DNA from: Natrialba taiwanensis DSM 12281
GTDB taxonomy: Archaea > Halobacteriota > Halobacteria > Halobacteriales > Natrialbaceae
NCBI RefSeq assembly: GCF_000337595.1
Contig: NZ_AOIL01000050.1
Coordinates: 135,588 to 199,587, forward strand
DNA: 64,000 bases
Direction of reading: 5' to 3'
The translations under genes were made by a program, and so were the position numbers. Under the pieces are notes generated by a model. The model saw only the letters and a program-made list of their open reading frames with translations, had not been told where the DNA came from and did not search any database. Below are positions 43,454 to 58,443 of this stretch, one piece after another (positions within the stretch are counted from its first letter, which is position 1; the number at the start of each line of letters is the position of its first letter).

Positions 43454-44272
43454 TCAGACCGTCGGAACGCCGAATAACAGCGAGAATACGGCGGCACCGA
43501 TCAACAGAACGCCCACAGCGAACGCGACGCGCTCGCCGTCCGGCGTCAGGCGCTCGATCGAGACGACGAGCGTCAGGCTGACCATTACGAGGAAATTCAT
43601 CGACCCGAGCGCGACCATCAGCGCGAACAGCGGCCAGGTGCACGCGACGCAGTTCGTCGCGTAGGAGATCCCCCTGCGAACCATCCGATTCACATTGGGA
43701 CAGTGCGGAATCGACTGGCAGGACGCACACCGCGAGAGCACCCGGCGCTTGAACGGCGTTAGCTGGTAGCCGCCGGCGAACGCGAGCAGTCCGGCGACGG
43801 GGACCGTCCCCGCACCGAGCCCGAACGCGGACGCGGTCGAGAACTCGTGAATCGAGACGAGCAGTTCGACCGCGAGGGGCACTGCGCCGATCGCCGTCCA
43901 GACGAGACCGTAGCCGCCGAGGAACCCGGCGATCGACGGAACGGCGACGGACGGATTCTGACACACGTCATCGAGGTGCTGTCGAACGACCGGAATCAGC
44001 GACGGGAGCATCATCGCGAGCATCATCGTGCCCCACATGAGCAGGTACGCGACGGTACCCGAGAGCCCGTTTGCCGTTGCCATCGCTTCGGGGACGCCGG
44101 GGGCGGCCATCGGGACCGCGAGTTCAGCGGGAGCGGGACCGAGATTGGGAAGCCAGCCTTCGAAGAGGATGAGCCACAGGAGTGCCGAGAGCGAGAGGGT
44201 GGTGAGTTCGGCGATGGGGAGCGAGTCGGAGTCGATACGAGTGGTGAACGAGAGTGGATTGTCGGGGAGCAT
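43454..44272 (-). CDS. DUF2182 integral membrane protein (predicted metal-binding)
   Basis: 272 residues with about seven membrane segments. It has the DUF2182 hallmarks: LLMWGTMMLAMMLPSLIPVV, the cytoplasmic loop YQLTPFKRRVLSRCASCQS, and SYATNCVACTWPLFALMVALGSMNFLVMVSLT. COG5486 proteins are described as predicted metal-binding membrane proteins; the Cys pairs CASC and CVAC could be the ligands. Function is not established. It precedes the propeller/pseudo-GDH operon on the same strand but after a 206-base gap. Confidence 0.85.
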   Translation of the reverse strand: MLPDNPLSFTTRIDSDSLPIAELTTLSLSALLWLILFEGWLPNLGPAPAELAVPMAAPGVPEAMATANGLSGTVAYLLMWGTMMLAMMLPSLIPVVRQHLDDVCQNPSVAVPSIAGFLGGYGLVWTAIGAVPLAVELLVSIHEFSTASAFGLGAGTVPVAGLLAFAGGYQLTPFKRRVLSRCASCQSIPHCPNVNRMVRRGISYATNCVACTWPLFALMVALGSMNFLVMVSLTLVVSIERLTPDGERVAFAVGVLLIGAAVFSLLFGVPTV

Positions 44273-44478: not shown

Positions 44479-45654
44479 TTAGTCCGTGGTGTCCGAACGG
44501 TCTCGGTGGCGCTCGAGAACGGTGCCGCCAGCACCGACGGCGATGTCGACGGGAACGGTCGCCAGTCCCTCGTCGTCCGACCGCTGGCGGGCGAGGGAGA
44601 GATCGAGGAGGGATTGTTCCGTCGGCGTGTCCCGTTCCTCCCAGCGGATGCTTTCGATGCGCTCGTAGACGCGCCCGCCGGTTGCGACGGCGACGGCAGT
44701 GTTGCTGCCTTCATCCACCTGGATGGACTGGAGCGCACCCTGTCCGACGTTGATCGGGGTCCAGTTCTCGCAGTGCGGGTCGTACCGATACGCGATGCCG
44801 TCGGCACCGGCGACGAAGACGGTTTCGTCGCCGGCCCAGATGTCGTAGAAGTCGACTTCGGCGTTGCGAACGCCGATTCGTTCCCACTCGCCGTTCGCGT
44901 CCGCGTAGTACGCGCCGCCGCTGGTGTCGATAGCGTAGAATCCGTCCGGGCCGGCGGTCAGGCCGGGTATCGTCGACCCGCCGCCGGGTTCGACGACATC
45001 GCCCCAGACCGGACAGCCGTCCTCGACGGTACAGTCGAGAACTTCGCCGGAGCCGTTCGCGATGCGGATGCGCTCCTCGCCGGTCGGCTCGGACACGGCG
45101 ATTCCCTCCCAGGTACTCGTCTTTTCCCCCGGTGCCGAGTAGTCGCTCAAGTAGCCGTCGGCGACGTCGTAGTACCCGAGTGCACCGCTGTCACCGGCAA
45201 ACCAGAGCCGACAGCCGTCGGCTGTTGCGTCGATCGTCCGCAGCGTGTTGTCCGCGACGCCCGGACCGCGCTCGATCAGTGTCTGCCACCCGTCGTCGCG
45301 TCGGTGCAGCAGGATGCCGCCCTCTCCACAGGCGTAGGCACCGTCCGCGCCGTGGACGACGCCGTGTAGCGTTCTCGAGGTCGGCGAGTCGGCTTCTTCC
45401 CAGTCGGCGGCCGCTTCGGCGTTCGACGGATCGGTCTCGCGACCGCCGTCCGACCGTGGTACAGCCTCGTCCTGGGATTCGAAGCTCGATGCGGAATCGG
45501 CGGCTTCCGACTCGGGGTCGGATCCGGAGTCAGAGTCAGGGCCGGAGTCGAAGTCAGAATCGGATTCGGAGTCGGCTGACGGGTCGATCTCGGGACTAAT
45601 TTCGGTCAGCCATTCGATCGCGTCGCCGAGCGAGTCGTCGAGACGATCGATCAT
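44479..45654 (-). CDS. cytoplasmic beta-propeller protein (Ycf48/BNR-like), paralogue of the lipoprotein propeller at 57.3 kb
   Basis: 391 residues. An acidic Ser/Asp linker (residues 20-90) separates a short N-terminal helix from a beta-propeller built of blades ending in W-x-I/L or Y/A-G-D-G patterns: TIDATADGCRLWFAGDSGALGYYDVADGYLSDYSAPGEKTSTWEGIAVSEPTGEERIRIANGSGEVLDC. The protein at 57344-58327 has the same blade order and near-identical signature strings (AGDSGALG, SAPxxxTSxW, GEERIxxxNGSGE). No signal peptide here. Its ATG overlaps the stop of the pseudo-GDH gene by four bases, so the two proteins are likely partners. Confidence 0.85.
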   Translation of the reverse strand: MIDRLDDSLGDAIEWLTEISPEIDPSADSESDSDFDSGPDSDSGSDPESEAADSASSFESQDEAVPRSDGGRETDPSNAEAAADWEEADSPTSRTLHGVVHGADGAYACGEGGILLHRRDDGWQTLIERGPGVADNTLRTIDATADGCRLWFAGDSGALGYYDVADGYLSDYSAPGEKTSTWEGIAVSEPTGEERIRIANGSGEVLDCTVEDGCPVWGDVVEPGGGSTIPGLTAGPDGFYAIDTSGGAYYADANGEWERIGVRNAEVDFYDIWAGDETVFVAGADGIAYRYDPHCENWTPINVGQGALQSIQVDEGSNTAVAVATGGRVYERIESIRWEERDTPTEQSLLDLSLARQRSDDEGLATVPVDIAVGAGGTVLERHRDRSDTTD

Positions 45655-47021
45655 CGAACCACCTCGTGAGCCGAGACGAGCCGCGAGAGCCCGAGTTCGT
45701 ACGCGCCGTCACGCCAGCCCACGTCGCGGCGCACACGATGGGCCCGAACGTCGGAAACGGCGTCGATAACCGCATACGAGAGTTCGTTCGCCATGCGCGT
45801 GTCGCTCATCTCGCTGCGGCCGACGTGACGACGCCATTCGAGGCTCGCGGCCGATAGTTTGCCGGCGAGCGACAGCACGGCCGGCACGACGGTGACATCC
45901 TGCTCCTCGAGAACGCGCTGCCCGCCGGCGGTCACCGCGCCGTACGCGCCTTCGACGACGAGATCCGCCCGAATCGTCTCTGCGTTTCTGGCGGTCACCG
46001 CCGTTCCTGATCCGGCGAGAACCAGCGCATCGACATCCGCTTCGAGGACGTTCTCGGTGCCGGTCATCGTGCCGCCGCTGAACTCGTCGATCGCACCCGG
46101 TCCGTCGAGGTAGCTGGGTGCGACGGTCGTATCGATGCCGTCGTCGGTAACGTCGTCGCCGTCACCGTCCTCGTCACCAGTCTCGTGCTCGAGCGTCTCG
46201 CTCTCCCCGTCACTATCGCCGTCGCCATCACCTTCGGCGTCGGCAGCAAGCCCGACATGATCGCTACACAGCGCGACGATCGTGCTGCCCCAACGGTCGA
46301 GCAAGCGTGCCGTCGTCGCACCGACGGTGCTGGTGCCGTACACGGCGACAGTTCCGTCCGACAGCGAGCGGCCGAGATCCGTCTCGAGTACATCTCGGAC
46401 GACGTGGGCGACGCTGTGGCCGCCGGCACAGGTGAACTCTCGCGAGCCGCCGAGAACGGCCGGTTTTCCAGCGGCCGTCGCGGTGTGGGGGCCGTCGACG
46501 CGTTCGGCGACGGCATCGGCGGCGCGAGCCATGGTGCGTTCGTCGGTTCCCAGATCGGGAACGAGAACGTCGCTGTTCGGCCCGAGATCGGTGATTCGTC
46601 GCGCGTAGGAGCGCGTGAGCCTGGCGCGTTCGTCCCACGAGAGTGTTTCCGGATCGCAGTCGATGCCGCCCGCTGCGCCGCCGAACGGAACATCGGCGAG
46701 CGCGGCGGTTACGGCAGTTGCAACTCCGAGTCCGGCACAGTCGCCGATTGACAGCCCGGGGACGTAGCGGTGCGGGCCGATGTAGGGGCCACGAACGTCG
46801 TCGTGGCGAACGCGGTACCCTGCTCGAACGTCGATCGTCCCATCGTCGCGTTCGAACGGAATGGCGATTTGCTGGCGCTGGCGCGCATACAGGAGCCGCT
46901 GTTCGATGTCATCTGGGACCGAGAGACGGTGGGCGGCGGTTCGGAGGTGACTCCACGGAGCATCGAGTGCGGGAGCGGTTCGGCTGGTCGTGTCGGTTGA
47001 AGCATCGTGCGGAGTAGTCAT
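45651..47021 (-). CDS. glutamate-dehydrogenase-like protein with lost catalytic lysines (putative pseudoenzyme)
   Basis: 456 residues aligned by eye with archaeal GDH: VRGPYIGPHRYVPG corresponds to RGPxKGGxRYHP, PFGGAAGGIDCDP to PFGGxKGGxxxDP, VPDLGTDERTMA to APDMGTDAQTMA, and VAVYGTSTVGATTARLL to VxGFGSVGxxxARLL. The substrate lysine (now Ile81), the lysine before the FGG motif (Thr105) and the catalytic lysine (Ala117) are all gone, though Asp156 stays. The dinucleotide glycine motif also loses its middle Gly (Ser231), and an acidic loop (about 260-295) is inserted. It overlaps the propeller gene by four bases. Probably a non-catalytic binding or regulatory protein. Confidence 0.85.
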   Translation of the reverse strand: MTTPHDASTDTTSRTAPALDAPWSHLRTAAHRLSVPDDIEQRLLYARQRQQIAIPFERDDGTIDVRAGYRVRHDDVRGPYIGPHRYVPGLSIGDCAGLGVATAVTAALADVPFGGAAGGIDCDPETLSWDERARLTRSYARRITDLGPNSDVLVPDLGTDERTMARAADAVAERVDGPHTATAAGKPAVLGGSREFTCAGGHSVAHVVRDVLETDLGRSLSDGTVAVYGTSTVGATTARLLDRWGSTIVALCSDHVGLAADAEGDGDGDSDGESETLEHETGDEDGDGDDVTDDGIDTTVAPSYLDGPGAIDEFSGGTMTGTENVLEADVDALVLAGSGTAVTARNAETIRADLVVEGAYGAVTAGGQRVLEEQDVTVVPAVLSLAGKLSAASLEWRRHVGRSEMSDTRMANELSYAVIDAVSDVRAHRVRRDVGWRDGAYELGLSRLVSAHEVVR

Positions 47022-47204: not shown

Positions 47205-47573
47205 TCAGGGATCACAGAAGAGACAGTGACGTTCCCACTCGTGGTGTTCTTCAAGTCGCCTGTTGGCGTGCGTGCTCGGCCGGTAGGCGTTGGTTCGTCC
47301 GTCGAGTGGGTGCTTTTCGACGTACCCCTCGTCGACGAGTTCACTGAGGTTCTGGTAGAGTCGGCCCTGGTTGATGTCCTCGTCGTAGTAGCAGTCGAGT
47401 TTGTCTTTGATCACGAGCCCGTGGGGGTTGCGTTCGGCCAGCAGTCGGATGACGAATAGCTGGTCGCGTTTGAACCCGGTCAGGTTCGTCAGTGGGCGAG
47501 GGGGTGTCGACCCGTCGATACTCGATTCGTGCTCGTCGGTGTCGTCGTGGTCGGTAGGGATGTTCCTACACAT
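47205..47573 (-). CDS. PadR-like winged-helix transcription regulator
   Basis: 122 residues with LTGFKRDQLFVIRLLAERNPHGLVIKDKLDCYYDEDINQGRLYQNLSELVDEGYVEKHPLDGRTNAYRPSTHANRRLEEHH: the PadR-type arrangement of helix-turn-helix (HGLVIKDKLDCYY), GRLYxNLxxLVDxGYVEK wing and the DGRTNxY strand. A Cys pair ends the protein (HCLFCDP). It lies just before the pseudo-GDH and propeller genes (183 bases upstream on the same strand), and may regulate them. The acidic N-terminus is disordered. The 47-base tRNA-like structure at 47604-47650 is between this gene and the membrane protein upstream. Confidence 0.8.
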   Translation of the reverse strand: MCRNIPTDHDDTDEHESSIDGSTPPRPLTNLTGFKRDQLFVIRLLAERNPHGLVIKDKLDCYYDEDINQGRLYQNLSELVDEGYVEKHPLDGRTNAYRPSTHANRRLEEHHEWERHCLFCDP

Positions 47574-47660: not shown

Positions 47661-47984
47661 TTAGGGACCGTGTTCTTTCCGGTGTTCTCGGTACAGGACG
47701 AGGACGAACGCCCCGAGCGGGAGGAGGCCGAGCAGAACGAGGAGCAGCCCTGCGATGAGAGCGGTGGGTAGCGATACGGTCAGGAAGTACAGCAGGACGG
47801 CGACTGCGCCGCCGAGCAGGAGGGTGACACTCGAGAACACGAGACCGAAGCTCAGTTTTCGCACGGTCCATTCGAGGTTCTGCGTTCGGCGGAGCTGGTC
47901 GATCAGGACGACGGCCGGTGGAATCGTCAGTGCGATCAATTGCAGGAGCATCAGTGCAACGTCGGTGCTTGTGGTGGATGCCAT
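47661..47984 (-). CDS. small three-helix membrane protein
   Basis: 107 residues, MASTTSTDVALMLLQLIALTIPPAVVLIDQLRRTQNLEWTVRKLSFGLVFSSVTLLLGGAVAVLLYFLTVSLPTALIAGLLLVLLGLLPLGAFVLVLY..., with three hydrophobic segments (about 7-30, 45-70 and 74-98) and a basic C-terminal end REHRKEHGP. I prefer this start because the longer version adds a Ser/Arg-rich leader. Family not recognised. It is upstream of the PadR-like gene on the same strand. Confidence 0.6.
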   Translation of the reverse strand: MASTTSTDVALMLLQLIALTIPPAVVLIDQLRRTQNLEWTVRKLSFGLVFSSVTLLLGGAVAVLLYFLTVSLPTALIAGLLLVLLGLLPLGAFVLVLYREHRKEHGP

Positions 47985-48326: not shown

Positions 48327-49901
48327 CTACCATTCTCGCGCGTGTGACGGCTCGTCAGCGAGGTTCCACGGATCGTCGCCGGCGTGCTCGCCGACCCAGA
48401 GCGACCGACCGAGGTTGAGCAGGAAGACGAGCTGGCCCACGGCGATGACGTAGGCTCCGACGGTAGCAAGCTGGTGAATCGGCGCGAACGCGGGCGGGTA
48501 GGTCGCGATTCGTCGCGGTAACTCCGCGAAGCCGACGACGAAGAGCGCGCCGAAGGTCACGATGATTCCGACGATAGTGAGCCAGACGTGCAGGTGAGCG
48601 AGCGTCGGATCATACCACCGGCCGGTAAGCAGCGGAAACCAGTAGTACGCCCCGGCGACGAGCGTGAACGCGACGAACCCGACGAGCATCATGTGGAAGT
48701 GGGCGACGACGTAGTACGTCCCGTTGTAGAGGACGTTGATCGGAGCCACCGCGAGAAAGACGCCGGTCACGCCGCCGACGATGAAGAAAGCGATCGCTGC
48801 GATGGTCGCGATCATCGGCGCTGTGTGCTGGATTGCACCCCCCCACAGCGTGCCGAGCCACGTACAGAGCTTCGCCGAACTCGGGACGGCGACCGCCAGC
48901 GTCACGAACATAAACACGGCGCGGACGCTGACGCCCATCCCGGCCATGAACAGGTGGTGTCCCCAGACGGTAAACGAGAGGATGCCGATCGCAAACGTCG
49001 AGTAGACGACCGATCGGCGGCCGAACAGCCGCCGTCCGGCGAATCGCGGCAGCACGTGGCTAGCGATGCCCATCGGTGGCAACACCAGGATGTACACTAG
49101 CGGATGGGCGAAGAACCAGAACAGGTTCAACCAGACCATCGGGCCGCTCCGACCGACGAGGAGCCCGACCCCAGCCGCCCGTTCGAGGAGCAAGAGCGCA
49201 AGCGAACCGGCCAGAACCGGGAAGGCGACGACCGCCATCGCCGCGCTCGTCACCACCGTCCAGGTGAACGTGTCGACGTCGCTCCACGGAATCGTCCGAC
49301 GGTGACAGACCGTGACGACGAGGTTCGCCGCGGTCAGCGACGTGCTGATCGCAACGAGCAGGAGGCCGGCGACCAGCGCGTCGACGGCGGGATTCGACGA
49401 CGCGACGCTCATCGGCGGGTACAGCGTCCAGCCGATCGCGACGGGGTCGAGTCCCGCCACGTCGAGTGCACTGCCGATCGTTCCGGCCCGAACCAGTATC
49501 GCAGCCGGGATCTGCAACCAGAACGCCGTCGCAGCAAGGGCGGGAAACGCGGTTCGTTCGGCACGGATCAGCGCTGGAACCGTCGCGTACGCGTATCCCC
49601 ATATCGCGGGAACCGCGAACAGGAACAACATCGTCAACCCGTGGGTCGTGAAGAGCGAACTGTAGACGTCGGCCGACCAGTGATCCAGCGTCGGCGTGAC
49701 GAGCGTCGTCCGAAGGAGCACGGCGTCGAGGCCGCCCCAGAGCCCCATCACCAGCGCGAAGACGAGGAACCACCGTCCGAGTCGGACGTGGCCGACGGCG
49801 ATCAATCGCCGGCCCGTTTCGACGGGCTCGCTTGTCGTTTCGAGTTCAGTGCCGTCAGCGTCGCCAGCGTCATCGTCGTCGGATGAGTGGGGTAGTGGCA
49901 T
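48327..49901 (-). CDS. orphan heme-copper oxidase subunit I-like protein
   Basis: 524 residues with about twelve helices. Heme and copper ligands are kept: His87 (SLFTTHG), His266 (FFAHPLVY), His315-His316 (WGHHLFMAGM), His401 and His403 (VVAHFHMMLVG), plus the cross-linking Tyr270, the K-channel Lys344 (PSSAKLCTW) and Arg463-464 (LPRRIATYPP). But the D-channel Glu of the HPEVY motif is Leu268, the upstream Asn residues (GNWLVPL...NN) are replaced, and no YS substitute exists. No subunit II, III or cupredoxin gene is adjacent. It may reduce oxygen with altered proton coupling, or sense it. ATG 49901 is used. Confidence 0.85.
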   Translation of the reverse strand: MPLPHSSDDDDAGDADGTELETTSEPVETGRRLIAVGHVRLGRWFLVFALVMGLWGGLDAVLLRTTLVTPTLDHWSADVYSSLFTTHGLTMLFLFAVPAIWGYAYATVPALIRAERTAFPALAATAFWLQIPAAILVRAGTIGSALDVAGLDPVAIGWTLYPPMSVASSNPAVDALVAGLLLVAISTSLTAANLVVTVCHRRTIPWSDVDTFTWTVVTSAAMAVVAFPVLAGSLALLLLERAAGVGLLVGRSGPMVWLNLFWFFAHPLVYILVLPPMGIASHVLPRFAGRRLFGRRSVVYSTFAIGILSFTVWGHHLFMAGMGVSVRAVFMFVTLAVAVPSSAKLCTWLGTLWGGAIQHTAPMIATIAAIAFFIVGGVTGVFLAVAPINVLYNGTYYVVAHFHMMLVGFVAFTLVAGAYYWFPLLTGRWYDPTLAHLHVWLTIVGIIVTFGALFVVGFAELPRRIATYPPAFAPIHQLATVGAYVIAVGQLVFLLNLGRSLWVGEHAGDDPWNLADEPSHAREW

Positions 49902-49962
49902 GCTGGTCACCGTGTAAAGTCAGTGCAAGCGCTCGTCTCGGTTCGAACCGGTACTCGTACGA

Positions 49963-51445: not shown

Positions 51446-52993
51446 TTACTTCAGGCCTCGCGATTCGAGCGCGTACGCGACTCGTCTCACGAGGTCGTAG
51501 GCGTGATAGAGAACGCCCGCGACGTACGGTGCGATTCGGTTGCCGAGGCGGACGCGTTGGTCCGGCTCGAGGGCGACGTACACCTGCACGGCGAAGAGGG
51601 GGAGCGTAACGACGTTGAATAGGGACGTGTAGGCTCCAGGGACCGTCCCGCCGGACGTACCGGGTGACGGAACGAGACCGACTCCGGAAAAGACGAGTTC
51701 GACGAGGAAGCCGGCGATGACGGCGGCGGCGAAGAACGCGGCGAACATGACGCCGGCCATGCGGAGGCCGTAGTAGCGGTGGTACGTTCGGACCAGCGGG
51801 AGGATCAGCAGGTCGGCGAAGATGAACGCGAGGACGCCGCCGAACGAGACGCCGTTTTGCCAGAGGACGACGGCGAAGGGAATGTTGCCGACGGAGCAGA
51901 GAAACGTCAGCACGCCGACGATGGCTCCGAGCACGACGTTGGAGAAGAGGCGCGTGAGACTTCCCTCGGGACCGACGCCGAAGAGGGCGGTCCACCAGGT
52001 GTCGGGGACGAATGCGGCGAGGAGTCCGGCGAGGAGGAATCCGAAGAGGATGTCTCGCCAGAGCATGTCCCACTCGCTCATCGTGTTCGCGATCGCGCTT
52101 TGCCAGCGGTCGCCCGAGAGGAGTTCGGGGCCGGCGGTAACGGCCTCGCGGTCGTCGGCCGGGTCGTACGCGTTGAGACAGCCGCCACAGCAGAAGTATC
52201 GGCGCTCGCCGTCGAACGTTCGCGTGATCGTCTCCTCGTCGGTCGGCGGGGCGGCCATGCCGCAGGTCGCGCATTCGGTTTCGTCGAGCGCGCGAGCGTG
52301 GGCGCGTGCCCGTTCGATCCACGATGACGGGACGAACCGCCGGTAGACGATGCCGAGAACGACGACGGCGATTAGCCCGCCGGTGATCTCTGCGGCGGCA
52401 AACTGCCAGCCGAGCAACGTCAGGACGACGAGTGCGAGTTCGAGGACGAGATCCGTACTCGCAAACTGGAACGCTCCGAGGGTGGACGCGGCCGAGGCAC
52501 CCTTGGTGAACAGCGACCGGGTCATCGCGACCGCGGAGAACGAGCAACTCGAGGAGGCCGTGCCGAAGACGGTCCCGTAGCCGATCTCCCGCCAGCCGTC
52601 GTCGCCGAGGTAGTCGGTGAGCTGATCCTCGTCGACGAACTCCTGGATGGCACCGGTGATCGTAAAGCCGAGGACGAGCGCCCACCAGGTATCCCAGGCC
52701 ATCTCGAGTGCGATGACCAGGGCCGTCACGAGCTGGATCAGGAGGGCACCGAGCAGCCCGGCGAGCCTGGCCGCGAGGTCGAGTCCGCCGCCGGTGACCG
52801 GTCCGAAGACGAAGCCGAGTTCAGCCGAGAGGGCGATAGCGATGGTGTTGGTGGTGGTGACGGTGGTGATGGTGGCCGACCCGGATTCGAGGTGGCTCTG
52901 GACGAGTAGCAATCGGAGCAACGAGACGAACTGGTGGCCGGACACGGGCCAGAGACTGGCCTGGTCGGTGAGCAGGTGTATCTCTGAGAGCAT
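51446..52993 (-). CDS. Cu/Zn-efflux-type permease with central Cys-rich metal-binding domain (DUF318/ArsP family)
   Basis: 515 residues. Membrane halves of the DUF318/ArsP_1 permease family: first half with SSSCSFSAVAMTRSLFTKGASAASTLGAFQFASTD, second with FLCSVGNIPFAVVLWQNGVSFGGVLAFIFADLLILPL. Between them, residues 241-272 carry ATGM-like CATCGM and CCGGC (Cys241, 244, 268, 269, 272), a YHS/TRASH-type metal-sensing knuckle. This arrangement is that of SO_0444-like Cu/Zn efflux transporters. The mRNA may have a leader of about 200 bases from a TATA-like element near 53222-53230. The MFS gene follows by 13 bases. Confidence 0.82.
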   Translation of the reverse strand: MLSEIHLLTDQASLWPVSGHQFVSLLRLLLVQSHLESGSATITTVTTTNTIAIALSAELGFVFGPVTGGGLDLAARLAGLLGALLIQLVTALVIALEMAWDTWWALVLGFTITGAIQEFVDEDQLTDYLGDDGWREIGYGTVFGTASSSCSFSAVAMTRSLFTKGASAASTLGAFQFASTDLVLELALVVLTLLGWQFAAAEITGGLIAVVVLGIVYRRFVPSSWIERARAHARALDETECATCGMAAPPTDEETITRTFDGERRYFCCGGCLNAYDPADDREAVTAGPELLSGDRWQSAIANTMSEWDMLWRDILFGFLLAGLLAAFVPDTWWTALFGVGPEGSLTRLFSNVVLGAIVGVLTFLCSVGNIPFAVVLWQNGVSFGGVLAFIFADLLILPLVRTYHRYYGLRMAGVMFAAFFAAAVIAGFLVELVFSGVGLVPSPGTSGGTVPGAYTSLFNVVTLPLFAVQVYVALEPDQRVRLGNRIAPYVAGVLYHAYDLVRRVAYALESRGLK

Positions 52994-53496: not shown

Positions 53497-53940
53497 TCAG
53501 CGAGCGAGTAATCCGACGCTCCGATGGCGGTTGTATAGGTATGCCGAACAGACAGTGACCGTCGACAGCAGGAAGCCGAGGACGGTGATCGCAATCGCGA
53601 TTCCGAACCCGGCCGCCAGTCCGGAGAGAACGCCGAGGAGCAGCGGAACGGCGACGGCTGCACCGACGTAGATTTGCCGATCGGGGTCCCACGCATCGGT
53701 TTCGGTCGCAACGAACTCGGCGTCCCGCCAGATCGCCGGCAGCGTGATGGCACTTGCGGCGACGATGACGATCAGGAGTGCGATACTGCCGACACTCGAG
53801 GCCAGTACCGAGCCGCCGCCGGTGAGGCGGGCGAGCGAGATGATCCCGAGCAGACTCAATACGGGGTAGCCGATCAGTATGTACCAGTACCACGGTGCTA
53901 AATCGGTCGAATCGACGGCTGGAAGATCACCACGTGACAT
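53497..53940 (-). CDS. four-helix membrane protein, haloarchaeal hypothetical
   Basis: 147 residues, MSRGDLPAVDSTDLAPWYWYILIGYPVLSLLGIISLARLTGGGSVLASSVGSIALLIVIVAASAITLPAIWRDAEFVATETDAWDPDRQIYVGAAVAVPLLLGVLSGLAAGFGIAIAITVLGFLLSTVTVCSAYLYNRHR... Four hydrophobic segments arranged in pairs around a soluble loop with DAWDPDRQIY. The start at 53940 is favoured over a longer reading. Family not recognised. It lies upstream of the permease gene on the same strand, separated by about 500 bases. Confidence 0.65.
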   Translation of the reverse strand: MSRGDLPAVDSTDLAPWYWYILIGYPVLSLLGIISLARLTGGGSVLASSVGSIALLIVIVAASAITLPAIWRDAEFVATETDAWDPDRQIYVGAAVAVPLLLGVLSGLAAGFGIAIAITVLGFLLSTVTVCSAYLYNRHRSVGLLAR

Positions 53941-54153
53941 GGTGCAATCGTCGTAGTAGCCAGGCACGGATAAGGTATCAACAAACATTAGAAATCTATG
54001 GAAAACATCTGTAACACGTTTCTAGAGTAGTATATGGGTCGCTCTATTTATTTTAGATACTCTCACTACTGTGTCATTTTATCCCGCTGGCACCGCTACG
54101 CTGAGGTAGCCGGTCGGACCGGTGCCCGGTTCGGCCGTCCCAACAACTAACAA
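53941..54153. other. AT-rich intergenic region (divergent promoters)
   Basis: The stretch around 53980-54070 is noticeably AT-rich compared with the surroundings and separates two divergently transcribed genes, so it likely holds both promoters (for example ATTTATTTTAG near 54046). No gene or structure of note beyond this. Confidence 0.5.
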
Positions 54154-54773: not shown

Positions 54774-55793
54774 ATGCGGCTCCTGACGGTACTCGCAGAC
54801 ACGCAGCCGAGTATCGACGAGGCGATGGCCGTCCTCGAGTCCCACGACCTCACGTACAGCCTCACCGATCATTCCGACGGCGAGCACTGGACGCTTACCG
54901 TTCCGGTCCCTGCACACGCGGTCGAACCGGTCGAAGACCAACTGGAGGCGATCACCGGGAACGTTACCGTCATCGTCGAAGCGCCGATGGCGATCCTCGA
55001 AACCGGCAGCGACTCCGCGCGAAATCGGTCCAACCGACGGCCCGAATGGCTCTCGTTCGAGCGCGTCTCCAGAAGCGAATTGCGGTCGAAAGCCCGCTCG
55101 CAGCTCCCCTCGTTCATCATCTTCGCCACGATGACGGCGATCAGCAGCGTCGTCGCAACCACCGGCGTCCTCCTGAACTCGCTGCCCGTTCTCGTCGGCT
55201 CGATGGTCATCGCCCCGCTGCTCGGCCCGGCAATGGCCGCAAGCGTTGCGACGGTCCTCGACGACCGACCGCTGTTCGTCCGCGGCGTCAAACTCCAACT
55301 GCTCGGCATCGTCGTCGCCCTCGTCAGCGCCCTGTCCTTCGCGGCGTTCGCACGCACGTCGACGATCATCTCCTCCGTCGTCGATCTCGAGGCGAGCCTC
55401 GGACTCGGCAGCCACGGCTTACCGCCATCCCTGCTCGTCACCGTCGCCATCTGCTCCGGCGTCGCCGGCGGGCTCGGCATGGCAACCACGGGCATTACGG
55501 ACCTGATCGGGGTGATGATCGCCGCCGCACTCATGCCGCCGATCGGCGTCATCGGCGTCGGCGTCGCCTGGGGCGCACCCGAAGCGACGCTCGGGTCGTT
55601 CGTCGTCGTCGCCGTCAACCTCATCGCGATCAACGTCGGGTCGATCGCAACGCTCTGGACCGTCGGCTTTCATCCGTCGGATCGCGCCCGTATCAGGACG
55701 ACGCGAAGCGCCATCCTGCGACGCGTCGCCGTACTGATCATCCTGCTCGTCCTTGCACTCCGCCTGCTCGAACTCGTCTCGGCCCTCCTCTGA
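54774..55793 (+). CDS. DUF389 (TIGR00341-like) membrane protein
   Basis: 339 residues. N-terminal 115 residues are soluble with a ferredoxin-like pattern (MRLLTVLADTQPSIDEAMAVLESHDLTYSLTDH..., PVPAHAVEPVEDQLEAITG), then about six membrane helices containing GSMVIAPLLGPAMAASVATVL and the GLGMATTGITDLIGVMIAAALMPPIGVIGVGVAWG segment, typical of the DUF389 / TIGR00341 family. Function unknown; related proteins are discussed as ion or sugar-phosphate exporters. The ATG at 54774 starts the conserved domain directly. It begins a three-gene row with the next two. Confidence 0.83.
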   Translation: MRLLTVLADTQPSIDEAMAVLESHDLTYSLTDHSDGEHWTLTVPVPAHAVEPVEDQLEAITGNVTVIVEAPMAILETGSDSARNRSNRRPEWLSFERVSRSELRSKARSQLPSFIIFATMTAISSVVATTGVLLNSLPVLVGSMVIAPLLGPAMAASVATVLDDRPLFVRGVKLQLLGIVVALVSALSFAAFARTSTIISSVVDLEASLGLGSHGLPPSLLVTVAICSGVAGGLGMATTGITDLIGVMIAAALMPPIGVIGVGVAWGAPEATLGSFVVVAVNLIAINVGSIATLWTVGFHPSDRARIRTTRSAILRRVAVLIILLVLALRLLELVSALL

Positions 55794-55854: not shown

Positions 55855-57360
55855 ATGACTGACGATTCCTCATCGCCCGACCCAGACCCGGACACTGCGA
55901 CCTCGCAAACGCCCCCCGACACGGCACAGGACTCGACTGAACTCGGTGCGCCCGACCACGGCAATTCCGAGACGGCCGGCGAAACCGTCCACGATGACGC
56001 CGACACAACCGTCGACACAACCGCCGACGCTCCCGCTGACGACTCGACGCCACCCTCCCAGCGGTCGCACTCCGAGTCGGATCGTTCCGGTGACGAGCAG
56101 TCATCGCTCGGTCTCTCCCTCGCGGTCTACATCGTTCGGCTGACCGTCGCCGGACTCCTCGTCGGTGGACGTTTGCTCTGGGTCGGCGCTCGAATCGGCA
56201 TCCAGCTGCTCACCGAAACGAAATCCCGCCGCGACAGCCACCGCTGGCTCTTACTCGAGGGCGACCGTCGCGTGATCGTCGGCGGCTTCGTCGCCGGTAT
56301 CTTCGTCATCGCACTCCTGCTCGGGGTGAGCGACGTCATCGGCGTCCGCGAGAGCCGATTCGTAACGACGATGTTTAGCACGATGATCGCGGGCCTGTTC
56401 TCGTTCATCCCGATCGTCGTCGCGGTCAACCAGTTGATCATCTCGCGGCTGTTCGGCACGCCGGACCGACTGACGGATCGCATCGACGGCGTCCAGGAGT
56501 TTCGCGCGCGTATCGAGCAACAGACGGAAGGGGATGGCGTGAGCCCGACCAACCCCGCACCGTTTCTCGCCCGCCTGGCCGGAACGCTCGGCAGCCGCGC
56601 CGACGCGCTCGTCTCGGAGTGCGAACGCGACGGGGAAGCCGCGTCCGAGTCAACGGTCGACGACCAAACCGCGGGCTGTTCGATGGACGCCTTCGAGTCC
56701 ATTCGACGCTTCGCATCGCAAACCCGCGACCACACGCGTGAACTCTCGTCGACGCTTACCGGCAGGACGGACTCCGTCTTCGCTGTCGTCTTGCCGACGA
56801 TCGATCACGACTACGCGGGTGCCGCCACCGAGGCACGGCGGTTTCGGCGACGGTTCGACGACGAACTGTCCGACCGGGCGTCGGAACTGCTCTCCGAACT
56901 CCGGGAACTGTTCGTCGCTGCGGACGCCACGCGACAGTACTTCACGACGATCTACCTCCAGCGCGACCTCGCGCGACTGTCGCGGTGGATCACCTACAGC
57001 GGCACTGCGGCGCTGTTGCTCTCAACCCTGGTCATTATGATCTACGCGAGTGGCTATCCGCCGGTCGCCCACGAGGGCCCGCTGCTCGTCCTCGTGAGCC
57101 TCGCGCTCGCGGTCGCGTTCAGTCCGCTCGGCGTCCTCTTCGCGTACGTCGTTCGTATCTCCGCGGTCCTCAAACGTACGTCCGCCCCCGGCGCGTTCAC
57201 GCCGTCGTCCCCGCCGAGCCGCCCATCCGAAGCCGGGATCGAAACCGCCGACAGCGAACCGGCAGCGACCGCTCCGGACCAGCGGCTGAACAACGGCCCG
57301 TCGAGCACCCGAGTTCAAGAGCAGGAACGGGAGGACGAGACCGATGGCGATGGGGCGTGA
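55855..57360 (+). CDS. large haloarchaeal membrane protein with acidic N-terminus
   Basis: 501 residues. A disordered acidic N-terminus (about 80 residues), then about three to four membrane helices around residues 85-200, an extended middle region with helical text (IDHDYAGAATEARRFRRRFDDELSDRASELLSELRELFVAADATRQYFTTIYLQRDLARLSRWITY), and two C-terminal helices (TAALLLSTLVIMIYASGYPPVAHEGPLLVLVSLALAVAFSPLGVLFAYVVRI). No characterised family is recognised. Its stop overlaps the start region of the propeller lipoprotein gene by up to 17 bases, so they are translated from one message. Confidence 0.7.
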   Translation: MTDDSSSPDPDPDTATSQTPPDTAQDSTELGAPDHGNSETAGETVHDDADTTVDTTADAPADDSTPPSQRSHSESDRSGDEQSSLGLSLAVYIVRLTVAGLLVGGRLLWVGARIGIQLLTETKSRRDSHRWLLLEGDRRVIVGGFVAGIFVIALLLGVSDVIGVRESRFVTTMFSTMIAGLFSFIPIVVAVNQLIISRLFGTPDRLTDRIDGVQEFRARIEQQTEGDGVSPTNPAPFLARLAGTLGSRADALVSECERDGEAASESTVDDQTAGCSMDAFESIRRFASQTRDHTRELSSTLTGRTDSVFAVVLPTIDHDYAGAATEARRFRRRFDDELSDRASELLSELRELFVAADATRQYFTTIYLQRDLARLSRWITYSGTAALLLSTLVIMIYASGYPPVAHEGPLLVLVSLALAVAFSPLGVLFAYVVRISAVLKRTSAPGAFTPSSPPSRPSEAGIETADSEPAATAPDQRLNNGPSSTRVQEQEREDETDGDGA

Positions 57361-58327
57361 TCGAATCCATCGGCGGACCGTCCTCACCGCGATCGGCGTG
57401 GCCGCGGTTTCAGTCTCGGCGTCGCTGGCCGGCTGCGGCGAGACGACCGCCGAGTGGACGCCGGCCACCGTTCCGACCGACGCGACGCTGTACGACGTCG
57501 GAACGACGGCGACTGGCGCTGTCGCCGTCGGCGAGGACGGAATCGTCCTGACTCGAGGCGACGAGTCGTGGACCGTCGCACTGCCGAACGGCCCCGGCGG
57601 GACGGCCGATACGCTTCGTTCGCTCGCGGTGACGAACAACGGCCGCGCGGTCTGGGCCGCCGGCGACAGCGGTGCGCTCGGCCTCTACGACGTCGTCGCC
57701 GATCAGGCTGTGGACTTCTCGGCACCGAAGGAGATGACGTCCTCCTGGACGGCGGTCGCCGTCGCCGGTCTCGCCGGCGAAGAACGGATTACGGCGCTCA
57801 ACGGCTCGGGTGAACTCCTCCACGGGCAACGCGACGGCACGTCGGTCGAGTGGGCCGAGGTGATCGAACCCGGCACCGGTTCGAGCGTCACCGATGTCGC
57901 TATCACGCCGCTGTCGTACGTCTACACCGTCGACACGGACGGCGGTGCGTTCGAATCGCGGGACGGCGGCGATACCTGGACGCGTATCGGAATCGATGCG
58001 GCGGCCGTCGATTTCGATGCCGTCGCCGCGGTCGATTCCGGGGCGGTCTCCGTCGCCGGCGGCGACGGCACCGTCTGGAACTACAACGGCGTCGGCTGGT
58101 CGCGCGCGTCACTCGCCGAAACGGCGATTACAGCACTGGTCCGGAACCGCTACGACGCGCTGGCGATCGCCTCCTCCGGCGACCTCTTCGAGCGCGATTT
58201 CGACGGTTGGACGACGCAAACGACGCTCCCGGCCCAAAACGATCCGCTCGCGATCACGCTCGGCACGTCTCGCGCCCCCGAACTCGTCGTCGGCGAGTCA
58301 GGGATGGTGATCGAGCGGCAGTACTGA
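57344..58327 (+). CDS. Tat-exported lipoprotein with beta-propeller, paralogue of 44.5-kb protein
   Basis: 327 residues. RIHRRTVLTAIGVAAVSVSASLAGCGE is a Tat signal (RR motif) with a lipobox SLAGC, so the mature protein would be lipid-anchored outside. The propeller blades match the cytoplasmic paralogue at 44479-45654 in order and text (AGDSGALGLYDV, SAPKEMTSSW, GEERITALNGSGE, VIEPGTGSSVTDVAI, WTRIGIDAAAVDF, GDGTVWNYNGVGW). The short C-terminal extension of the other copy is absent. Start could be 57344 or 57350. It overlaps the upstream membrane-protein gene, suggesting an exported partner of that membrane protein. Confidence 0.85.
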   Translation: MAMGRDRIHRRTVLTAIGVAAVSVSASLAGCGETTAEWTPATVPTDATLYDVGTTATGAVAVGEDGIVLTRGDESWTVALPNGPGGTADTLRSLAVTNNGRAVWAAGDSGALGLYDVVADQAVDFSAPKEMTSSWTAVAVAGLAGEERITALNGSGELLHGQRDGTSVEWAEVIEPGTGSSVTDVAITPLSYVYTVDTDGGAFESRDGGDTWTRIGIDAAAVDFDAVAAVDSGAVSVAGGDGTVWNYNGVGWSRASLAETAITALVRNRYDALAIASSGDLFERDFDGWTTQTTLPAQNDPLAITLGTSRAPELVVGESGMVIERQY

Positions 58328-58443
58328 CCGTCGGCCGACCGGCACTCGCACCTGTGGCCCGGGTCGCAACTGCAGCCACAAACGACCCCCGCGAGGATAC
58401 GATCCCGTTACGCTTTACCCCCACCGGGCCGAATCGTGGCTCA

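Follow-up and report, generated by a model that had tools for sequence, protein, structure and literature searches.

The window, by which we mean the whole 64,000-nucleotide stretch of DNA that was analyzed, encodes a heme-copper oxidase subunit I of A-type ancestry in which nearly all D-channel residues are replaced and the K-channel is kept. Judging from sequence, we lean towards reading this protein as a member of an A-type-derived lineage of heme-copper oxygen reductases in the Natrialbaceae that has probably given up the D-channel and would work with the K-channel alone, in the manner of B-type enzymes. Turnover and energy conservation of an A-type enzyme without its D-channel is a central question of proton pumping, and has so far been probed by means of point mutants. 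The clade described here supplies natural intermediates, i.e. relatives with all D-channel residues, relatives in which Asn residues are lost and the Glu is kept, and forms with Gln (one), Glu (one) or Leu (22) at the Glu position, and subunit II in these intermediates is present, unlinked or missing. An oxidase core that is without one of two proton channels, and mostly without its electron-entry partner, would thus provide a natural test of a minimal enzyme. The classification scheme of Sousa et al., in the accessible portion of that paper (PMC3084760), has no slot for an A-type K-channel unaccompanied by a D-channel, and a literature search that left most subscription journals outside its coverage found no description of an A-type D-channel loss like this one.

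Subunit I and its proton channels

The gene and two diagnostic codons, the positions of which were calculated from the sequence, are located as follows:

48327..49901, minus strand: heme-copper oxidase subunit I, 524 aa, A-type by homology, with HPLVY
49098..49100, minus strand: codon of L268, at the position of the D-channel Glu (E278 in Paracoccus)
48870..48872, minus strand: codon of K344, the K-channel Lys, which is kept

The reading frame runs on the minus strand from an ATG at 49901 (a GTG start is possible at 49910) to a stop at 48327. Its product matches the full length of the Pfam COX1 profile with 395.5 bits (cut-off 34.8), and the best NCBIfam model is CtaD_CoxA, with 472.7 bits, a score under the equivalog cut-off of 670.75; the SoxB (B-type) and ccoN models score 91.8 and 39.9 bits, respectively. 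No second Pfam domain was found fused to subunit I. The best sequence relatives in the PDB are aa3 cytochrome c oxidases, and an AlphaFold2 model (mean pLDDT 81.5, pTM 0.85, built from 23 input sequences) had aa3-type cytochrome c oxidases for all of its best 12 PDB matches in Foldseek, with TM-scores of 0.87-0.88. The profile scores and the structure model, the latter proposed as a check in the original prediction, agree in placing subunit I with the A-type in sequence and in predicted fold. Its named close relatives are Natrialba aegyptia and N. asiatica (96%), followed by Natrinema and Halobiforma (67-71%).

All of the ligands and key residues that had been called present, namely the six His, the cross-linking Tyr, the K-channel Lys and the propionate Arg residues, were located in the protein (H87, H266, H315, H316, H401, H403, Y270, K344, R463 and R464). 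The reported change of HPEVY to HPLVY, which puts L268 at the E278 position, was borne out, as was the missing Tyr-Ser substitute of A2 enzymes, the sequence reading FFAHPLVY. The further claim that the Asn and Asp residues of the D pathway are gone holds for three of the four and fails for N199, which is kept (N193). The part of Sousa et al. 2011 (PMC3084760) that could be consulted gives the A-type D-channel residues as Asp124, Asn199, Asn113, Asn131, Tyr35, Ser134, Ser193 and Glu278; these Paracoccus numbers were matched to alignment positions by us and not by the cited list. The window protein (P0001) has Y105 for N113, R116 for D124, A123 for N131, F45 for Y35, A126 for S134, T187 for S193 and L268 for E278, and retains only N199 of the eight listed residues.

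By homology, subunit I belongs to the A-type; by its residues, it would fit none of the A1, A2, B and NOR groups of Sousa et al. With A1-type enzymes (aa3; Paracoccus, Rhodobacter, bovine) it shares the fold (TM 0.87-0.88), the six His, the cross-linking Tyr, the Lys/Thr(Ser)/Ser of the K-channel and the propionate Arg pair, but it is without Glu278, Asn113, Asn131 and Asp124, and there is no spare subunit II gene in its genome or in 17 further genomes. An HPxVY motif without Glu is common to the A2-type, whereas the window protein has no Tyr-Ser before the His and has lost most of the D-channel too. Like B-type enzymes (ba3), it has no D-channel and carries a non-acidic residue at the Glu position; unlike them, with their alternative K-channel that has no Lys, it keeps the A-type K-channel Lys, and it scores 472.7 against 91.8 bits in favor of the A-type.

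Heme-copper families have changed substrate before, and on this precedent nitric oxide, not oxygen, could be suggested as the substrate, a proposal that we consider very improbable. The NOR motifs, which the accessible portion of PMC3084760 gives as H-x-(Arom)-x-E and HHx(Arom)(Arom)x17E, are both absent, HPLVY with the oxidase Tyr being found instead, and a nosZ-like gene (a name that we give to long frames, of about 640-710 aa, that match PF00116) occurs in only 7 of the 24 genomes of the clade.

Distribution, apparent order of loss and selection

The clade comprises 24 Natrialbaceae genomes of eight genera (17 from a first search, the window's included, and seven more from a second), in all of which subunit I is intact and free of internal stops. 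For comparison we used 20 cluster-sharing relatives outside the clade, which bear the D-channel (L027-L039, L111-L116, L124), and 15 other haloarchaeal A-type rows. Throughout the clade the alignment shows the six His, the Tyr, the K-channel Lys and both Arg to be invariant (24/24). The A-type K-channel residues in the Sousa/Pereira scheme are Lys354, Thr351, Ser291 and Tyr280; the Lys and the Tyr are kept in 24/24, Ser stands for Thr351 in every clade row, as it does in all 35 other haloarchaeal rows, and Ser291 is found in 20/24, the window protein among them. At the E278 position there is Leu in 22 rows, Gln in one (L025) and Glu in one (L122), while N113 is Tyr and N131 is Gly or Ala in all 24; D124 is retained in six rows and N199 in 15. 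All five of these D-channel residues (N113, D124, N131, N199 and E278) are kept in the 15 other haloarchaeal rows. The cluster-sharing relatives, which have the same gene cluster, approximately 47-53% identity and likewise no CuA motif within about 8 kb, differ from the clade in retaining the Glu in 20/20, N131 in 18/20 and N113 in 16/20. L025 (Gln) and L122 (Glu) come from two species of one genus (g24), and both read AHLH in place of AHFH.

Among 391 haloarchaeal genomes, 16 contain the motif FF[A/G]HPLVY, once in each and always at this gene, which excludes a chance origin, and all 16 are clade members. The clade received an SH-aLRT support of 100 in a 66-row tree, in which L032, L033 and L124 are its nearest relatives. 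This tree was built with a 'quick' method; its outgroup does not fall on one side, and L123 and L124 sit on long branches. Left out of it were L040-L045 (the same or nearly the same species as other rows), L010, L134 (which duplicates L131), fragmentary rows, and 30-odd others that were either nearly identical sequences of Acidithiobacillus type or own-genome duplicates; L004, L007, L008, L048, L070 and L077, being duplicates or fragments, were left out of the sequence set, as were L140 and L141, which consist of 10-base placeholders. Since the three nearest cluster relatives keep the Glu and have already lost N113, N199 and, in two cases, N131, the D-channel appears to have been lost stepwise, Asn first and Glu last, an order that is drawn from the quick tree.

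Between the window and its two congeners, dN/dS of subunit I is 0.104 and 0.145, approximately 2-3 times the values of canonical coxA in the same three species (0.043 and 0.062), which indicates that subunit I is kept by purifying selection, less tightly than canonical coxA. This difference, taken together with the losses of D-channel and subunit II and with the lack of a match at E 1e-100 in four of six other searched genomes of the genus, might be read as a decaying gene heading for loss. We regard this as highly improbable for a gene that has dN/dS of 0.10-0.15 and invariant catalytic residues, and that is intact, with no internal stops, in 24 genomes of eight genera. As the D-channel has been lost across a conserved, selected clade in which the K-channel is kept, we infer, with good support, that proton coupling is unusual, as the original prediction had it.

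The conserved gene cluster

Subunit I had been described as an orphan, which is correct insofar as the window holds no subunit II, and incorrect insofar as the gene sits in a conserved cluster, and is therefore not isolated, with COX2 present in the cluster of 4 of the 24 genomes. The other features of the cluster in the window are:

43454..44272, minus strand: PpoB2 (DUF2182) copper chaperone-like membrane protein
44479..45654, minus strand: second beta-propeller protein, HVO_0234-like match
45651..47021, minus strand: glutamate dehydrogenase homologue with GGAAGG, the Lys of GPYKGG absent
47205..47573, minus strand: PadR-like regulator
47661..47984, minus strand: small conserved cluster membrane protein, 107 aa
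49963..51432, minus strand: MFS-like membrane protein (weak match to MFS_1, under the cut-off), the next gene upstream of subunit I in almost every relative
51446..52993, minus strand: ArsP_1-type permease that includes a TRASH-like segment for metal binding (TRASH match under the cut-off)
53497..53988, minus strand: small conserved cluster protein, membrane-like, without a Pfam family
54774..55793, plus strand: DUF389 protein, first called gene of the window's divergent arm
55855..57360, plus strand: conserved cluster protein, 501 aa, no Pfam family
57344..58327, plus strand: YCF48/BNR-like propeller with a lipoprotein-like N terminus (match below cut-off)
58328..58443, no strand: empty slot, in which a COX2 gene follows the propeller gene in four relatives

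Two related beta-propeller proteins (44479-45654, minus; 57344-58327, plus) flank the cluster, and the gene that follows the empty slot in the window is one that we take to be GatB-like. The conservation of this arrangement, which is common to the clade and its D-channel-bearing relatives, was surveyed in 43 rows (the window and 42 loci, among which L040-L045 overlap others in species). An ArsP-type permease is present in 42/43 rows, as read from this survey. Immediately upstream of subunit I, on its strand, stands an MFS-like gene (gene families 12 or 13) in 37/43; the same place is otherwise taken by a 273-aa piece in two rows, an unclustered frame in three and another gene in one, and the gap between the upstream gene and subunit I measures -11 to 115 bp in 42/43. 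Further members of the cluster are PadR, the PpoB2 copper chaperone, DUF389, the two propellers and, in many relatives, a small protein with two conserved Cys, named HMA-like by its sequence. Conserved Cys in the permease, and conserved Met and Cys in the chaperone, fit copper handling by the cluster. Profile searches of the PDB with the MFS-like and propeller proteins returned no useful match (the single weak match was unrelated), and searches of PHROGs returned none.

The glutamate dehydrogenase homologue (45651-47021, minus) has GGAAGG in place of GGAKGG, the Lys of which we take to be the active-site Lys of this enzyme, and has also lost the substrate Lys, that of GPYKGG, in 21/21 clade copies examined. 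Two of three copies outside the clade keep both Lys, and one (L110) is without both. The gene is under purifying selection (dN/dS about 0.09-0.105), and the source genome holds four other full PF00208 matches. With two enzymes of one cluster altered in one clade, a repurposing of the whole cluster is a live rival to the K-channel reading: the oxidase core and the dead dehydrogenase might act as sensors or scaffolds (for oxygen, copper or redox state) and not in energy conversion, in keeping with the lost D-channel, the missing Lys residues, and the PadR regulator and copper-handling genes alongside. We think this unlikely, as a scaffold would have no use for the heme, CuB, Tyr and K-channel residues, yet these are kept in 24/24 (bar Ser291 in four), and no other Pfam domain is fused to subunit I.

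Subunit II, electron entry and related oxidases

The predicted absence of a nearby subunit II was confirmed for the window, in which no frame contains a CuA motif, and for its contig (C50), which has no PF00116 match. Partner genes were sought by whole-genome searches with PF00116 and PF00115 in the 24 clade genomes, in which a COX2 was counted as paired if a COX1 lay within 3 kb; the COX1 pairing list omitted NorB-like and some unpaired COX1 entries, an omission that cannot make a paired COX2 unpaired. In 18 genomes, the window's included, each COX2 either is nosZ-like or has another COX1 within 3 kb, so none is unpaired; draft genomes may hide a COX2, yet several of these 18 are in one to five contigs. 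Four genomes (G208, G362, G378 and G411) hold an unpaired COX2 8.2-9.2 kb from subunit I, in the divergent arm, and two of one genus (G344, with Gln, and G391, with Glu) hold one unlinked to the cluster. A subunit II near the gene in relatives, which the original prediction had named as evidence against itself, was thus found in four relatives, and not in the window or the other 17 genomes.

In G208, G378 and G411, for which gene order was read, the slot COX2 comes after the propeller gene, where the divergent arm ends, while that of G362, from Halobiforma nitratireducens (L045), is known by position and sequence. All have complete CuA ligands, with Glu (G208, G362), Ala (G378) or Ser (G411) as third motif residue. 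In a COX2 tree, G208, G362 and G378 group together (97/98) and G411 is placed elsewhere with weak support, on a branch of 2.26, and the very long branch leaves us unsure of a single origin. The slot of the window holds nothing, the next gene beginning 116 bases past the propeller. The simplest history is that an ancestral subunit II in the slot was lost at least twice; separate gains may instead have occurred. An earlier result of ours, that no subunit II occurs within 8 kb (strict CuA pattern, 0/42 family loci; L040-L045 same species as or near others, L005 and L078 left out), was overturned by the whole-genome PF00116 search, since the COX2 genes of G208, G362, G378 and G411 sit just outside the stretches scanned. 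The strict pattern, which requires Glu or Gln in the third place, is blind to the Ala and Ser variants, and our statements on subunit II therefore rest on PF00116.

Whether the enzyme is still CuA-dependent, and borrows the subunit II of another oxidase from elsewhere in the genome, was weighed as an alternative to a different electron donor, and we consider it doubtful, albeit well worth keeping in mind. Other COX2 genes are encoded in all 24 clade genomes, an unlinked unpaired one occurs in two (G344, G391), and coxA and coxB lie at separate loci in several haloarchaea. The P-side loops of the 18 rows with no spare COX2 carry a mean of 5.1 acidic residues, compared with 11.7 in six coxB-adjacent controls, which is odd for a brine-exposed face and is compatible with a covering partner; however, the four members with a slot COX2 already show a comparably low mean (5.2), which hence says nothing specific on borrowing. 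Also against borrowing are the 18/24 genomes in which no COX2 is free, each being nosZ-like or at most 3 kb from another COX1, and the loss of the Mg-site His (H368 in bovine) in 24/24 clade rows, although Asn takes its place in 1/15 other haloarchaeal rows as well. The H368 loss was dropped as a mark of subunit II loss, given that the canonical L136, with an adjoining COX2, also has Asn and that clade members with COX2 show the same loss. A bo3-like quinol oxidase was rejected: among the residues that we take to form the bo3 quinol site (R71, D75, H98 and Q101), R71, H98 and Q101 are not conserved, and D75 is present but is shared with almost every other row. A search of the cluster for an electron donor found no common motif for heme c or for a cupredoxin. 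The different electron donor put forward originally would follow only where no spare subunit II exists, in 18 genomes, and even these may share that of another oxidase.

Under the reading that we favor, with the D-channel given up, oxygen would be reduced at heme a3/CuB, and protons would enter via Y270-S281-S341-K344. Pumping along the D-path would be weak or absent, the usual gate at the Glu being missing. In 4/24 genomes, electrons would enter through the CuA subunit II encoded in the cluster, and in the 18 without a spare subunit II, the window's included, they would come from another donor; the copper of CuB is probably provided by the cluster's own permease and chaperone. In the accessible part of PMC8239185, six of eight protons are stated to use the D-channel in A-type enzymes, and B- and C-type enzymes to have the K-channel only; B-type enzymes without a D-channel are likewise described in the portions available of PMC3084760 and PMC8239185. 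With the D-channel gone and the K-channel kept, the chemical protons would have to come by the K-channel. A working enzyme is not thereby assured, as mutations of channel-end residues abolish activity in the A-type enzymes studied, according to the same part of PMC8239185, and the Glu of L122, the D124 kept in 6/24 and the dN/dS above that of canonical coxA run counter to use of the K-channel alone. A rather unlikely extension is a new complex, in which an A-type core first gave up the D-channel and later the CuA subunit, its outer face being capped by another cluster protein (e.g. the lipoprotein-like propeller beside the empty slot), with the neighboring dehydrogenase also a pseudoenzyme.

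Other oxidases were observed in the course of these comparisons. Haloarchaeal coxA genes beside DUF6789 resemble the window's gene in that they stand alone and that a CuA motif is missing within about 4 kb, but the rows examined keep the D-channel Glu, Asp and all three Asn, and the sampled genomes have a coxB-coxC-ctaA/ubiA locus elsewhere. Such stand-alone coxA with full D-channel and no CuA motif within about 4 kb were found at L125-L128, L130, L132, L133, L138 and L139, several of them adjoining a DUF6789-like protein (Pfam-checked in L130 only), and L166 has coxB with COX3 and a CtaA-UbiA fusion, apart from coxA. Two further A-type subunits I of the source genome, at L143 (G000 C42:126000-136000) and L144 (G000 C9:180000-192000), keep HPEVY and the D-channel Asn and Asp, and have Met or Ile in place of the K-channel Lys, so that enzymes lacking K and an enzyme lacking D occur in a single genome. 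According to the accessible part of PMC8239418, archaeal family A oxidases have lost the K-channel several times. The contig of the COX1 gene in L144 gave no match to PF00116, and the neighbor of this gene at L144:7499-8851 is not a cupredoxin by Pfam. In G402, the source of L164, canonical COX1 appears as two same-strand matches (C3:507038-508419), possibly owing to a frameshift.
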